A stretch of DNA of 38,471 nt from the NCBI GenBank assembly GCA_009691335.1, contig SICR01000004.1:1-38471 (forward strand), read 5' to 3'. Shown in pieces: positions 23,778 through 30,018 of this stretch. The notes beneath the pieces were generated by a model. That model searched no databases. It saw nothing but the letters and a program-made list of their open reading frames with translations, and had not been told where the DNA came from. Within the stretch, counting starts at the first letter, position 1, and every line of letters begins with the position of its first letter. Position numbers and translations under genes: made by a program. This DNA is from Candidatus Zambryskiibacteriota bacterium (GTDB lineage: Bacteria; Patescibacteriota; Minisyncoccia; Phycocordibacterales; Zambryskibacteraceae).

Positions 23778-24311
23778 TCAGGTTAATTGACTAGCCTGTA
23801 TACCTATATTTATGGCTTTGATTAAGGCTTTTCTACCAGCTTCGTCAACAGACGGGTCTAAATTTAAATCCGACTCATGCAAATATCCTAGCTGGTAGAG
23901 TATTTTTGCCACCAATCGCATCTCAAACATCTCTTGGTCAACATCCGATGTTGACCATCTAGACACAACAGCTCCTTCCACCACATCAAACAATTCTGGA
24001 TGAGGTTCCTCACCCTGAACCAATTTTTCTAAAAGTGACAGAGGTCTCGCCATCTCTCTCATAGAAGAAAAATTTTGTAGAAATTCTCCTGAAGTAATCC
24101 GCCAATATTCCTTGCCTCTTACGAGCGATATTCTGGATAGAGAAAGTGGCTCAAGTGCTCCGCGAAGTTTAGAGGCTTCCTTGCGCACACCAAGTGCCGT
24201 GGCGTGTATCAAGCCTAGCTCACGGGTAAGAATGCTGTATACTCTGTCCGCTTCTTTTATCGGCCTTTCGGACAAAATTATCCCCTTAGTGGTATAAATA
24301 TGGTAAGACAC
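23778..24311 (-). CDS. recO: DNA repair protein RecO
   Basis: VSYHIYTTKGIILSERPIKEADRVYSILTRELGLIHATALGVRKEASKLRGALEPLS. GTG start at 24311 proposed, avoiding ileS overlap. Confidence 0.85.
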   Translation of the reverse strand: MSYHIYTTKGIILSERPIKEADRVYSILTRELGLIHATALGVRKEASKLRGALEPLSLSRISLVRGKEYWRITSGEFLQNFSSMREMARPLSLLEKLVQGEEPHPELFDVVEGAVVSRWSTSDVDQEMFEMRLVAKILYQLGYLHESDLNLDPSVDEAGRKALIKAINIGIQASQLT

Positions 24312-24330
24312 GGGAATTAATTTACAATTC

Positions 24331-27300
24331 TCAATTGAACTCCACATTCGTAGCTTTTTGAATTTCTCCAGCATGTTTGGTAAAAAACTTTTTCCCTCCT
24401 TCTGGTATTTCATAAGCCGCCCTTTCTCCAGGTTTCAACCCTCTCTCTTTTCTCCACACCTGAATAGTACGGACTGCGTCGCGCACTCTCCCCTCTTCTT
24501 CCAATTCTGAAGTTATATTTATATCAAGCCAGACCTCTTCAGTAAGATTTTCATCGACTGTTACAGCCTTAACATTCAGTTCATCTTTTATTATTTCCAG
24601 ATATTCTTTTTCCAAATCTTTATCCTTAATTTTAAGTTGAGCTAAGGGCTGGCGAACCTTAATATTTGCTTTCATACGCGCTTCAAGAGCAAGAGAAGTG
24701 AGTCTTCTGGTTTCTTCCATCGCAGTCAATATATCCTTATCTGGCTTACCACCTTCAGGCCATGACTCGAGGTGAACACTCAATGAATCATTGGATTCTT
24801 TTACTTTCTGATACATATCTTCGGCAATAAATGGCATTATCGGTGCTATCAATTTCGAAAATTCTTTAAACACGTAGCGAGTAGTGGCTAGAACACTCTG
24901 CTTGTCTTCTGTATCACCGCCCTTAAATCTTTCTCGCGAGCGCCTAATATACCAAGTGGACAAATCCGCTACGAAGTCGCGGATTGGACGGCTGGCTCGC
25001 ACCAAGTCGTACTCCTCCATTGCTCCCGTTATCTCTATCGTCAATTGCCTAAAGCGAGAGATTATCCAACGGTCAAGCACGTGTTTACTCTCGGCAGAAG
25101 CAGTGACATCGGTAGCATAAAGTTCATAAAAGCCAAAGGCGTTCCACAAAATATTAATGAGCCGGTTATGAACTTCTTTCACCTCTTCATCCTTAAATAG
25201 CATATCCTCCGCCCGCATCACCACGTTACTCATGAGGTAATAGCGGAATGCATCAGCTCCGATACTATCAAGCAGAATCAGCGGATCTGTGTAATTACCT
25301 TTGGATTTGCTCATCTTGGAACCATTCTTGGCCTGAACATTCCCTGTAGATATGACATTCTTAAAGGCCACATCATCAAACAGCATCACCGCGATAGTAT
25401 GCATGTAGTAAAACCAGGTACGGGTCTGAGCTATGTACTCAGCCACGAAGTCCCCGGGAAAGCACGATTCAAACTCTTTCTTATTTTCAAAAGGATAATG
25501 ATACTCGGCAAACGGCATTGAGGCCGACTCGACCCAGCCGTCTATCACTTCTGGAATCCTCTTGAGAGGCTTACCGTCTTTCTCAAGATTTATTTCATCT
25601 ATATACGGGCGATGAAGATCAATTTCGTAATTGTCATTGTGAGGTAGAGGCGCAAAATCTAACTCACGGACTTCTGCATTCCCAAAACGTTTAAACTCAT
25701 CGACAAATACGTGAGTATCTGCTGGACGATAAACTTTATTATTTGGGTCAAACATGCCCGCGTTTACATAAAATAGCCACGCTGGTCCTCCGTGTGTGAC
25801 AAAGAGTATGTTTTTACCCTGATATTTATTTTCAATTTCATAGAGACATTCGCCCACTCTCTTTTGACAATCAAGAAGAGACTCGCTGTTACCGAGATGC
25901 CGAGTAAACCAATCACTACCTGAAACAAGCATGTCTGAATGATAATCCGGCCAAGCCTTGCCATCATAATCGCCTGGATTTATTTCCTGAATCCTTTCAT
26001 CGAAAACTACTGAGCCTTTTTTCAATCCAAGTTCGGTTCGTACTATTTCAGCAGTTTCTCTAGTTCGAGCAAATGGAGAAGCGACAATTAGATCAATTTT
26101 GTTTTGAGAAAGATTCCTCGCAATCTTCAAAACTTCTTTTTTACCTTCTTCAGTTAAGTGATCATTACCTTGATTCTTGTAACTGATAACATCTTTAGCG
26201 TTTCCCTCAGTTCCTCCATGTCGCATTACGAAATATTTATTTCCTGATTTTTTTGAATATTTTTTCAACTCATCCAAAGAGCCTATCAAAATAATTTTCC
26301 CTTCTTCATCCTTCCAGATTGGTAATGGCGCAGCCCAATAGCGATTGCGAGAAATAGTCCAGTCAGGAGCGTTCTCAACAATATTCAAGAATCGGCCATG
26401 CTTGAGGTGTCCCGGCACCCAATTAATCTTTTCATTCAACTTGATCATCTTCGCTTTTACCTTCTGGATATTTATAAACCATGAGGAAATAGCATTATAG
26501 AGGAGGGCGGTACCACAGCGATGACAGTGAGGATATGAGTGGGTATGTTGTTCGCGTTTAAAGAGAAGATTTCTCTTTTCCAAATCTTCCTTTATCGCCT
26601 TCTCCGCTTTCTTGAAATATTGGCCGCTTATGAGTTCTGGAGCTTTCTCATTGAAATGGCCAGCATGATCAAGAAGTTGGACCATCGGCAAATCAAGTTT
26701 AAGTCCCAGTGCATAATCGTCTTCTCCATATAACACCGCGGTATGAACAACCCCTGTTCCTTCATCAATGTTTACGAATTCTGCTTCTGCCACATACCAA
26801 CCTTTCTTTCCACCTTCTTTGGCCGCAGGAATTTCATAAATTGGCTCGTACTCTATACCAACCATTTCACTTCCCTTATGTTCTGCTACGATTTCGTACG
26901 GTTCAGACATGAGAAGAAGTCTGCTTTTAGCCAAAATTAGAATTTCACCCCCTATTTTTATCTCCACATAATCAATATCTTTACCCACTGCTAGTGCCAC
27001 ATTGCCCGGTAGTGTCCAAGGAGTAGTCGTCCATGCTAAAAAGTAGGTATTAGGAAAGTCTTTTAATTTAAATTTCACATAGACTGACTCTTCAGCAACA
27101 TCTCTATAGCTGTTATCCATCGCGATCTCAGCTTTCGCTATGGGAGTTTCGCAATGAGGGCAATACAGGAGCACCTTACGACCTTCGTACAACAAACCCT
27201 TCTCATTTATATTTTTCAACGCATGCCAGACGCTCTCAATATAAGTGTTATCCATGGTCTTATACGCATTGTCGTACTCCACCCAGCGTCCTATACGCTC

Positions 27301-27696
27301 TATATAACGCTTCCAGTCATGGGCATAGCGCAAGACTGACGCTCGACACGCTTCATTGAAGGCTTTGACTCCGATCTTATCTTCTATTTCTTTCTTATCC
27401 TTAATACCGAGCTCTTTCTCTATCATGTTCTCTATAGGCAGACCATGGCAATCCCAACCCCAGCGACGACGGACATGATAACCCCTCATAGTTTTGTATC
27501 GAGGCACAACATCTTTGATAATAGAAGAAAGCAAGCTCCCGGCGTGTGGCAAGCCTGTAGCAAATGGCGGGCCATCGTAGAATACGAAATCACCCTTGGG
27601 AGCTTTTTTCTCCAGACTTTTCTCAAAAATCTTATTATCCTTCCAGAATTGGATGACTTCCTCTTCCTTTAGGGCTCGTTCTGACTTTTCAACCAT
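24331..27696 (-). CDS. ileS: Isoleucyl-tRNA synthetase with inserted histidine-phosphatase domain
   Basis: WTTTPWTLPGNVALAV, GEDDYALG editing region, KMSKSKGNYTDP. Continuous frame containing RHGGTEGN...SPFARTRETAEIV...THGGP (about 25660-26250). Confidence 0.95.
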   Translation of the reverse strand: MVEKSERALKEEEVIQFWKDNKIFEKSLEKKAPKGDFVFYDGPPFATGLPHAGSLLSSIIKDVVPRYKTMRGYHVRRRWGWDCHGLPIENMIEKELGIKDKKEIEDKIGVKAFNEACRASVLRYAHDWKRYIERIGRWVEYDNAYKTMDNTYIESVWHALKNINEKGLLYEGRKVLLYCPHCETPIAKAEIAMDNSYRDVAEESVYVKFKLKDFPNTYFLAWTTTPWTLPGNVALAVGKDIDYVEIKIGGEILILAKSRLLLMSEPYEIVAEHKGSEMVGIEYEPIYEIPAAKEGGKKGWYVAEAEFVNIDEGTGVVHTAVLYGEDDYALGLKLDLPMVQLLDHAGHFNEKAPELISGQYFKKAEKAIKEDLEKRNLLFKREQHTHSYPHCHRCGTALLYNAISSWFINIQKVKAKMIKLNEKINWVPGHLKHGRFLNIVENAPDWTISRNRYWAAPLPIWKDEEGKIILIGSLDELKKYSKKSGNKYFVMRHGGTEGNAKDVISYKNQGNDHLTEEGKKEVLKIARNLSQNKIDLIVASPFARTRETAEIVRTELGLKKGSVVFDERIQEINPGDYDGKAWPDYHSDMLVSGSDWFTRHLGNSESLLDCQKRVGECLYEIENKYQGKNILFVTHGGPAWLFYVNAGMFDPNNKVYRPADTHVFVDEFKRFGNAEVRELDFAPLPHNDNYEIDLHRPYIDEINLEKDGKPLKRIPEVIDGWVESASMPFAEYHYPFENKKEFESCFPGDFVAEYIAQTRTWFYYMHTIAVMLFDDVAFKNVISTGNVQAKNGSKMSKSKGNYTDPLILLDSIGADAFRYYLMSNVVMRAEDMLFKDEEVKEVHNRLINILWNAFGFYELYATDVTASAESKHVLDRWIISRFRQLTIEITGAMEEYDLVRASRPIRDFVADLSTWYIRRSRERFKGGDTEDKQSVLATTRYVFKEFSKLIAPIMPFIAEDMYQKVKESNDSLSVHLESWPEGGKPDKDILTAMEETRRLTSLALEARMKANIKVRQPLAQLKIKDKDLEKEYLEIIKDELNVKAVTVDENLTEEVWLDINITSELEEEGRVRDAVRTIQVWRKERGLKPGERAAYEIPEGGKKFFTKHAGEIQKATNVEFN

Positions 27697-27769: not shown

Positions 27770-28276
27770 TTAGACTCGCTCAGGCTCTGGAGTCTCCAAT
27801 GATTCAAGTGCCAAATTACGGGAGAATACACGACTGCCCATAAACCATCCGTCTGGATCAGAGATCTCTTCGGTAATGATGCGCCAGCCATCTCTAGCTC
27901 CACGACGTGCAAGCACGGCGCAACCATCAACATAGAAAATGTTTGTGCGCCCGTCAACGAGGAGATCACCCTTACGGCCATTTGCTTGCGACTCTACCTT
28001 ATCGAAGAGCCAAGCCAAGAAGATTTCGTGACCCTCACCAAGTTCGGCCTTGATGGGACCAAGGGTCGAGCTCTGCACCAATCGATGACTAGAGAGTGTA
28101 GCAGATGGGACATTCTCCTCGATCTTGTCACAAAACAACCTTTCAAAGTTACCACCGAGGTAATAAATCCCGGCGTTGCCCTTTTTGAAGTTTTTAGCAA
28201 CTATGAACCTCTCATGCGCTGAGACCTTGACGTCACTCTTGACGAGCTCAAGGATCGACTTCATTGCAAACTCCAT
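27770..28276 (-). CDS. Hypothetical protein (168 aa), monocistronic
   Basis: GGGAG Shine-Dalgarno, strong promoter (28350-28378) and own terminator. Confidence 0.75.
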   Translation of the reverse strand: MEFAMKSILELVKSDVKVSAHERFIVAKNFKKGNAGIYYLGGNFERLFCDKIEENVPSATLSSHRLVQSSTLGPIKAELGEGHEIFLAWLFDKVESQANGRKGDLLVDGRTNIFYVDGCAVLARRGARDGWRIITEEISDPDGWFMGSRVFSRNLALESLETPEPERV

Positions 28277-28349: not shown

Positions 28350-28414
28350 ATTATACACCTTATAAAGTCACTTGTAAAGTGACTTCAGTTTCTCACTATC
28401 AAATAAAGTTACTT
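28350..28414 (-). promoter_or_regulatory. Promoter with three AAGTNACTT boxes
   Basis: Minus strand TTTACA - 17 nt - TATAAT (28350-28378); boxes at 28365-28373, 28377-28385 and 28406-28414. Confidence 0.75.
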
Positions 28415-30018
28415 TACATACTTAAGGGAGTCGGAATACCAAGAATGGTCAAACCATTTTTGATAACAATACTGAAAGCTTGGACGATAGCCAATCTATA
28501 AGCTGATTCTGAAGAATCATTAAGCACCTGCTCATTGGCATAGAAATTATTGAAGGATGATGAGAGCTCAGTAAGATATGTGGTGATGTAATTGGGTGCA
28601 TATTCCTTGGCCGCCCGCTCAACTATCTCTGGGAATCTATGTAGAAGCTTCTCAACCTCATGGGTTTCCCTGGACAAGGTTGAACCCTGTCCGACTTCTA
28701 ACAAAGTCCGACCTTGGGAATCCGCTTTCTTGAGAAGTGAGTTGGCGCGGGCGTACGCATACTGCAGATAAACACCGGAATCACCTTCGATCGAGACAGA
28801 TTTCTCTAAGTCGAATACGATATCATTGCCAATAGCTTGACGCAGTATCATGTATTTGATAGCCCCAATAGCTACTTGCTCATCACCCTTAACTTTCCCT
28901 TTCACTTCTTCAATTAAAGCTTCGGCCGTAATTACATTCCCCGTCCTAGAAGACATTTTACCTGTTAGAAGTCTTAATATGCCATGCGAAAGATGTTTGG
29001 TCTTCTTGGCCAATTCAGGATAAATCTGACTCAGAGCAGTAAGCATTACTCTGAAATATTCCTTAATCTCATTACTTGTAACTACAACCGATAAATCATA
29101 CGGATAGTGGTCATACTTATTTTTTGCATTTCCCAAATCCTTAGCTTCATATGTTGGTAAACCTTGAGAGTTTATAAATACACGAGTATGAAGCGAAGGT
29201 CCAAACTTCTCGCCCTTAAACACAATAGCACCATCAGATTCTTCAAAAACTCTTCCGATATTTTCTTGTACAATCTTTTTTCCCGCTTCACCAGTTTCTG
29301 ATTCAAAAAAATAATAATCGAATTTAGTGCCGAGTCTTTTATAGATTACTTCAAAAGATTCCAAACTTTTCTTCTTTCCTTCTTCGTAGATTTTGTTTAT
29401 TTCTTCATCAGACTTGTCATAGATCTCTTTATTAATATCTTCAATCTCTTTTTTCGCCCTTTGGTCTTCCTCATACGCCTTATGTCCTAAAGCATAGGCA
29501 TTATCTTTCTTTCCCTCTCTTATCGCCCAAACCGCCTTGGCAACATGAAGTCCTACATCTCCCTGATAATTCACCTGTTTCACTTCCGCACCGTTCCATT
29601 CAAATATTCTGGCAAGAGTTGAGCCAATAACATTAGGCATTAAATGTCCTATGTGAAATTCTTTGAATGGGTTTGGGTCAGTATGCTCCACCATTATCTT
29701 CGTGCCTTTTATATATTCACTTTTCCCAAAATTCTCTCCTTCATCAATAATCTTTTTCAAACTTTTTTTAAAAAATTCTTTTGAAAGATAGAAGTTGATA
29801 AACCCAGGCCCAGCCAATTCCACCCTTTCCACCCCACTTGGCGGTGAAACCGCCAAGTGGGCATAAATCTCCCTGGCTTTACCTGTTTTGATCCCAACAT
29901 TTGTCGAATAGTCCCCCATCTTGAGGTCTGCTGGGTGTTCCACGACAAATCCAGTCTCGGTTATGCCGAGCTCTTTGAGCGCATTCTCAATGACTTTCCT
30001 TATTTCTTCTTTTATCAC
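28414..30018 (-). CDS. argS: Arginyl-tRNA synthetase
   Basis: VEHTDPNPFKEFHIGHLMPNVIGSTLARI, LAGPGFINFYLS, GKMSSRTGNVITAEAL. Confidence 0.96.
   Translation of the reverse strand: MIKEEIRKVIENALKELGITETGFVVEHPADLKMGDYSTNVGIKTGKAREIYAHLAVSPPSGVERVELAGPGFINFYLSKEFFKKSLKKIIDEGENFGKSEYIKGTKIMVEHTDPNPFKEFHIGHLMPNVIGSTLARIFEWNGAEVKQVNYQGDVGLHVAKAVWAIREGKKDNAYALGHKAYEEDQRAKKEIEDINKEIYDKSDEEINKIYEEGKKKSLESFEVIYKRLGTKFDYYFFESETGEAGKKIVQENIGRVFEESDGAIVFKGEKFGPSLHTRVFINSQGLPTYEAKDLGNAKNKYDHYPYDLSVVVTSNEIKEYFRVMLTALSQIYPELAKKTKHLSHGILRLLTGKMSSRTGNVITAEALIEEVKGKVKGDEQVAIGAIKYMILRQAIGNDIVFDLEKSVSIEGDSGVYLQYAYARANSLLKKADSQGRTLLEVGQGSTLSRETHEVEKLLHRFPEIVERAAKEYAPNYITTYLTELSSSFNNFYANEQVLNDSSESAYRLAIVQAFSIVIKNGLTILGIPTPLSM
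28672..28718. repeat. Second palindromic segment inside argS coding sequence
   Basis: GGACAAGGTTGAACCCTGTCC followed by GACTT-ctaaca-AAGTC and CGACCTTGG. Confidence 0.6.
29833..29861. repeat. Perfect palindrome inside argS coding sequence
   Basis: CCCACTTGGCGGT-GAA-ACCGCCAAGTGGG, 13-bp arms. Confidence 0.85.

Follow-up and report, generated by a model that had tools for sequence, protein, structure and literature searches.

A predicted histidine phosphatase inserted in the zinc ribbon of isoleucyl-tRNA synthetase in Patescibacteria

The closest described relatives of the domain reported here are enzymes that stand alone. PhoE (YhfR), the broad-specificity phosphatase of Bacillus stearothermophilus, is freestanding, and so are phosphoserine phosphatase 1 of Hydrogenobacter thermophilus (4IJ5/4IJ6) and the alpha-ribazole phosphatase CobC. 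A histidine phosphatase (HP) can also be part of a larger protein. In the bifunctional RNase H / acid phosphatase (PRK07238) it is joined to RNase HI, an RNA-related enzyme. Isoleucyl-tRNA synthetase (IleRS) bearing an enzyme domain is the subject of NF040702 (NCBIfam ileS_w_GNAT). Since NCBI curates this model, enzyme domains in IleRS have already been noticed in annotation. The protein described here carries a phosphatase where NF040702 carries a GNAT, and it scores 284 against that model's cut-off of 1999. Unlike the HPs above, its HP is inserted in a synthetase, and both of its ends connect to the zinc ribbon.

The window is a stretch of 38,471 nucleotides of contig SICR01000004.1 from Candidatus Zambryskiibacteriota bacterium. 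Its relevant features are as follows, where counts out of 146 refer to HP copies in frames of 1000-1260 aa.

28414-30018, minus strand: argS, upstream neighbour of ileS (similarity search)
27770-28276, minus strand: 168-aa ORF between argS and ileS, no Pfam match
24331-27696, minus strand: ileS, IleRS with an internal HP domain, a single open frame of 1121 aa
26245-27696, minus strand: N-terminal core of IleRS (Pfam, NCBIfam, 1ILE alignment)
About 25627-26244, minus strand: inserted segment, residues about 485-690 (alignment and flank mapping)
25741-26232, minus strand: His_Phos_1 (PF00300) match, residues 489-651 (Pfam E 2e-29)
26215-26223, minus strand: R492-H493-G494, catalytic Arg and nucleophilic His (R and H invariant, 146/146)
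26065-26079, minus strand: S540-P-F-A-R544, second catalytic Arg (R invariant)
25984-25986, minus strand: E571, general acid at the PhoE-type position (E in 143/146)
25882-25971, minus strand: HP cap segment, residues about 576-605, deleted in nine genus mates
25792-25794, minus strand: H635, second catalytic His (invariant)
24331-25626, minus strand: C-terminal core of IleRS (Pfam, alignment)
25303-25317, minus strand: KMSKS signature, residues 794-798 (alignment)
23778-24413, minus strand: recO-like gene overlapping the end of ileS (similarity search)

The frame scores as an IleRS, with 812 bits against TIGR00392 (ileS, NCBIfam; cut-off 621). Its Pfam matches are tRNA-synt_1, split in two, Anticodon_1 and His_Phos_1. 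The N-terminal core holds the HIGH-type motif GLPHAGS, the CP1 editing domain, SRNRYW and the first half of the zinc ribbon. The C-terminal core holds DLHRPYID, the second half of the ribbon, KMSKS and the anticodon-binding domain. The editing motif of CP1, including a Thr-rich strand and the catalytic Asp, is also present (WTTTPWTLPGN and GTGVVHTAVLYGEDD), and D327, K794 and K797 are invariant across the IleRS alignment. With its signature motifs intact the synthetase is probably functional. An AlphaFold model of the full protein, made with 76 homologues, has a pLDDT of 91.7 and a pTM of 0.85, and the solved structures closest to it are the IleRS of Priestia, yeast and Thermus.

The first-pass annotation had proposed that a histidine phosphatase interrupts this frame, and that identification holds. 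The insert scores 103 bits against PF00300, where the gathering cut-off is 21.7. The motifs named in that annotation are all present: RHG, SPFAR and the second catalytic His (residues 492-494, 540-544 and 635). Folded alone, the insert reaches a pLDDT of 92.3, and the top fold matches in the PDB are histidine phosphatases (E 2e-13), namely phosphoserine phosphatase 1, mycobacterial glucosyl-3-phosphoglycerate phosphatase and PhoE. Profile comparison with solved structures gives PhoE (1EBB/1H2E, 1e-25) as the best match, aligned through all catalytic positions; phosphoserine phosphatase 1 and CobC also match highly. On these models the insert is a complete branch-1 histidine phosphatase with the alpha/beta HP fold. 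CobC is the top NCBIfam HP model, and CobC identity itself was rejected at 79.9 bits against an equivalog cut-off of 162.9.

The insertion is internal and not a terminal fusion, as the first-pass annotation had also claimed. Flank mapping used L180, an insert-free IleRS from the window's own order, as the reference. Nearly all IleRS inserts at this site map between its residues 472-484 and 505-514. L180 and L181, a second insert-free IleRS of the order, have about 30 and about 20 residues there, and no insert interrupts the alignment of the solved IleRS 1ILE at this site. The alignment of 1ILE and L180 places the insert at the tip of the zinc ribbon, with one cysteine pair on either side, so the HP sits between the two knuckles. 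In Thermus IleRS these cysteines bind zinc. Many IleRS with the insert, in other parts of the order and class, keep both pairs; the window genus has lost the ligand cysteines.

The insert is not a peculiarity of one genome. Full-length IleRS frames with the insert are the rule among the 60 relatives examined. Nearly all of the window-order genomes examined carry it at the common site, with insert-free IleRS in two members of the order (G058 and G051). In the phylum sample 9 of the 15 genomes that represent the remaining orders of the class have it, as do several other classes of Patescibacteria. The first-pass annotation had called for a survey of CPR IleRS, and the recurrence at a matching site in the order, the class and other Patescibacteria agrees with the CPR origin it supposed. 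A scan of named genomes was the sole search that reached phyla beyond Patescibacteria. Among its best 80 matches the carriers are Nomurabacteria, Taylorbacteria, Campbellbacteria, Wolfebacteria, Zambryskibacteria, Yonathbacteria, Kaiserbacteria, Vogelbacteria and one Berkelbacteria, including the complete chromosome CP011209.1. In the window genome the IleRS-borne copy is the only PF00300 match, a statement bounded by the genome being 83% complete. G058 has neither the insert nor any PF00300, so HP activity is dispensable there.

The pattern of conservation is that of an enzyme. Some loci were fetched by patterns containing the second Arg or His, so the count was repeated without the copies found in that way. 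All five catalytic residues are kept in 100 of 100 pattern-free IleRS-borne copies. They are also kept in 12 of 14 ValRS copies and 21 of 25 freestanding HPs, where Asp is scored as Glu throughout this count. The rest of the domain is less conserved. Over 2850 pairs the insert diverges faster than the IleRS core in 96%, with median identities of 37% and 47%, and every catalytic residue lies among the lowest-entropy columns of the insert. About 30 residues of the HP cap are lost in nine genus mates (L017, L023 and L182-L188) and likewise in one species of a sister genus (L189). These capless copies retain R, H, R, E and H, although RHA replaces RHG in L186. They resemble the minimal HPs of the SixA type, which are short and have an open layout. 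The window copy differs from SixA in having a cap, and identity with the phosphohistidine phosphatase SixA was rejected (35.3 bits against an equivalog cut-off of 74.5). Judged by its residues, the inserted HP is likely catalytically competent, a predicted working enzyme.

The HP does not always share the history of the synthetase that carries it. The window IleRS and L017, from the same genus, are 89%, 45% and 79% identical in the N-core, insert and C-core. The values against L005, also from the same genus, are 54%, 66% and 49%. The core tree unites L001, L003, L004, L017, L023 and L185 in a clade with a support of 99. Forcing this clade on the HP data is rejected (AU test, p 4e-49), as is forcing the HP grouping on the core data (p 4e-39); since the groups were named after the trees had been seen these p values are not strict, and the likelihood gaps are large (241 units for the HP data and 1977 for the core data). 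The conflict between the core and insert trees, together with the AU rejections, argues for exchange of HP cassettes between ileS lineages. The direct reading is that the window HP would have been swapped in from another ileS lineage by intragenic exchange of the cassette. IleRS cores of one genus also fall in distant branches of the core tree, which suggests frequent horizontal transfer or several ileS lineages within the genus.

HP genes that stand alone are also found. Similarity to argS is present in 98 fetched loci and to recO in 111, so argS-ileS-recO is the usual setting. The 168-aa ORF of the window has a relative in only one other fetched locus (L028). Three genomes, G409 (L079), G334 (L080) and G392 (L234), have an IleRS without the insert and, in the same orientation, a separate HP gene immediately flanked by argS and ileS. 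In G409 and G334 the frames overlap or are almost contiguous. Within the class a freestanding HP adjoins ileS in 3 of 4 cases, and an HP gene of the same clade can be located away from ileS, as in G235. The HP tree makes the G334 gene and the inserted copy of G383 sisters (support 99/89), and it groups the G409 gene with that of G235 inside the inserted copies. These placements imply at least two moves between the inserted and the freestanding form, for which the tree gives no direction. The G392 gene has no supported position, so we count its adjacency and leave its ancestry aside. In G133 one HP is inserted and another lies just upstream of ileS. It must be noted that G317 (L224, L233 and L252), labelled as the same order, has only freestanding HPs. 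On both strands of its three HP-bearing stretches, long frames overlap one another, the pattern one expects from high-GC DNA; its contigs are possibly contaminated.

The choice of host protein is narrow. All fetched HP-bearing frames of at least 500 aa are IleRS or ValRS. In an unbiased PF00300 survey of 192 genomes the listed frames of at least 800 aa agree with this restriction as far as checked, the check taking in all but four f112 genomes (G153, G227, G247 and G266). HPs occur at the equivalent loop of ValRS in L062, L063, L065, L067, L070, L071, L075, L078 and others, and the IleRS of family f112 have two HPs each. The HP tree requires several changes of host label, which means several acquisitions and not one; its deep branches are weak. 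Some of these proteins are elaborate. A ValRS of G106 (L067:2375-6208) has two tandem HPs at the ribbon loop. An IleRS of G302 (L064:1667-6382, 1572 aa) has three HPs in three different loops. An IleRS of G106 (L066:2638-6990, 1451 aa) combines two inserts, a GNAT acetyltransferase ahead of DFIAEGLDQTRG and an HP ahead of the anticodon-binding domain. A ValRS of G289 (L078:827-4657, 1277 aa) has HAD-like hydrolase, serine hydrolase and HP insertions. Among the smaller frames, Pfam confirms in G335 (L073:3273-4658) a fusion of an HP with a VTT (DedA-like) membrane domain, and the frames of about 440-460 aa in family f89 are candidate fusions of the same kind.

We argue the best explanation is that the insert would be an autonomous phosphomonoesterase of the PhoE/CobC-like HP branch, grafted on the tip of the IleRS zinc ribbon. 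The invariance of the catalytic residues despite the faster divergence of the insert supports an active phosphatase. So do the catalytic sets of the capless genus mates and the match in fold and sequence to the active enzymes PhoE and phosphoserine phosphatase 1. The HP very probably cleaves phosphate esters, with His493 forming a phosphohistidine intermediate. Why it stays where it is can be argued with less assurance. It may be kept with IleRS and ValRS because its substrate arises at the charging of tRNA(Ile/Val) or interferes with it. Candidate substrates would be an inhibitor that bears a phosphate, a synthetase residue that has been phosphorylated or a tRNA with phosphate at its 3' end. 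The HP would then clean up on board the synthetase and would not serve as a step in central metabolism. We consider the case for retention with IleRS, and elsewhere ValRS, on account of a charging-linked substrate to be evenly balanced. The full picture, an autonomous HP on a functional IleRS acting as a charging-linked clean-up phosphatase, has in our judgement about an even chance of being right. HP genes of the same clade that lie away from ileS, as in G235, count against the link to charging.

One can also imagine a metabolic phosphatase that rides a permissive synthetase loop for steady expression and has a substrate unrelated to isoleucine charging. This is possible, though we find it somewhat doubtful. 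A permissive loop also fits the range of enzymes (HP, GNAT, HAD and serine hydrolase) that different loops of IleRS and ValRS carry, as well as the occurrence of up to three HP sites in one protein, the existence of freestanding HPs and the fast divergence outside the catalytic residues. That various other enzymes are inserted, and that G058 can dispense with the activity, favours such a passenger over a clean-up enzyme. The specificity for IleRS and ValRS and the adjacency to ileS favour the opposite. Against the passenger, no HP is fused to any other protein of at least 500 aa in the loci checked, and three of the four freestanding copies within the class adjoin ileS.

It is very unlikely that the HP clears the by-products PPi or AMP to drive charging. 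The HP would be physically close to the charging reaction, and some window-family genomes are without the pyrophosphatase PF00719. However, that pyrophosphatase is present in the window genome and 9 other window-family genomes, and every synthetase makes PPi, yet the HP is in IleRS and ValRS only. A separate pyrophosphatase and a fusion confined to two synthetases weaken this role. Characterised HP relatives are phosphomonoesterases, which counts against it too. A domain that keeps the HP fold for structure or binding without catalysis is most improbable. Several genus mates have lost the cap, but even the capless copies share the invariant catalytic residues, against a background of drift in the rest of the domain.

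There is scarcely any case for reading the HP as the cell's phosphoglycerate mutase of glycolysis, housed within IleRS. Such mutases share the superfamily, and the metal-dependent phosphoglycerate mutase (PF01676) is absent in 17 of 17 window-family genomes. However, enolase is also missing in 14 of the 17, including G017, an insert-bearing genome rated 100% complete, so a mutase role is rejected for most of the family. The window protein also reaches only 62.9 bits on the model of the cofactor-dependent mutase (dPGM), where the cut-off is 225. An assembly chimera or frame artefact joining two genes is ruled out by the insert and site being shared in scores of independent genomes, with full-length frames in dozens of relatives and a complete chromosome (CP011209.1) among them.

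The swapping, doubling, loss and splitting-off of the HP suggest an undescribed activity tied to tRNA charging. An essential and ancient translation enzyme of a very large radiation of tiny, uncultured bacteria carries an intact predicted phosphatase. If a phosphatase step is tied to isoleucine and valine charging, an unknown reaction would be added to the biology of aminoacylation. Even under the ordinary reading, class I synthetases would be hosts of enzyme cassettes in reduced genomes. A bolder version, which we think unlikely, is that IleRS and ValRS carry exchangeable protective cassettes, made of HP and in some lineages GNAT, HAD and serine-hydrolase modules. These modules would disarm inhibitors directed at the synthetase, or would reverse phosphorylation of the synthetase or tRNA by toxins, and an arms race would drive their swapping, duplication, trimming and loss. 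If true, this would be a layer of immunity built into an essential translation enzyme.

A known anti-phage defence protein was considered and rejected, with zero matches to PADLOC defence profiles for the insert, the whole protein, a freestanding copy and the triple-HP IleRS. In the terms tried, the literature search returned no paper joining IleRS with a histidine phosphatase or with a GNAT domain. The two ValRS papers it returned (fly sterility, Acinetobacter proteomics) look unrelated, and a text search of a paper on synthetase insertion modules (PMC10810186) gave no phosphatase or candidate-phyla passage. The domains are known, and the architecture of an HP in IleRS and its evolutionary behaviour are apparently undescribed in the literature searched. 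A parallel is microcin C immunity, in which the GNAT MccE2, the carboxypeptidase MccF, the S51 peptidase MccG and the phosphoramidase MccH disarm a nucleotide inhibitor of AspRS (PMC9239234). The enzyme types in that set, an acetyltransferase, a serine hydrolase and a phosphorus-bond hydrolase, are analogous to those inserted in synthetases. MccH is not known as an HP. The microcin C genes are freestanding and act against an inhibitor of AspRS, whereas the cassettes described here are built into IleRS and ValRS. By analogy, and not as evidence, these synthetases, which change rapidly, swap modules and combine GNAT, serine hydrolase and phosphatase, recall the enzymes that disarm microcin C.
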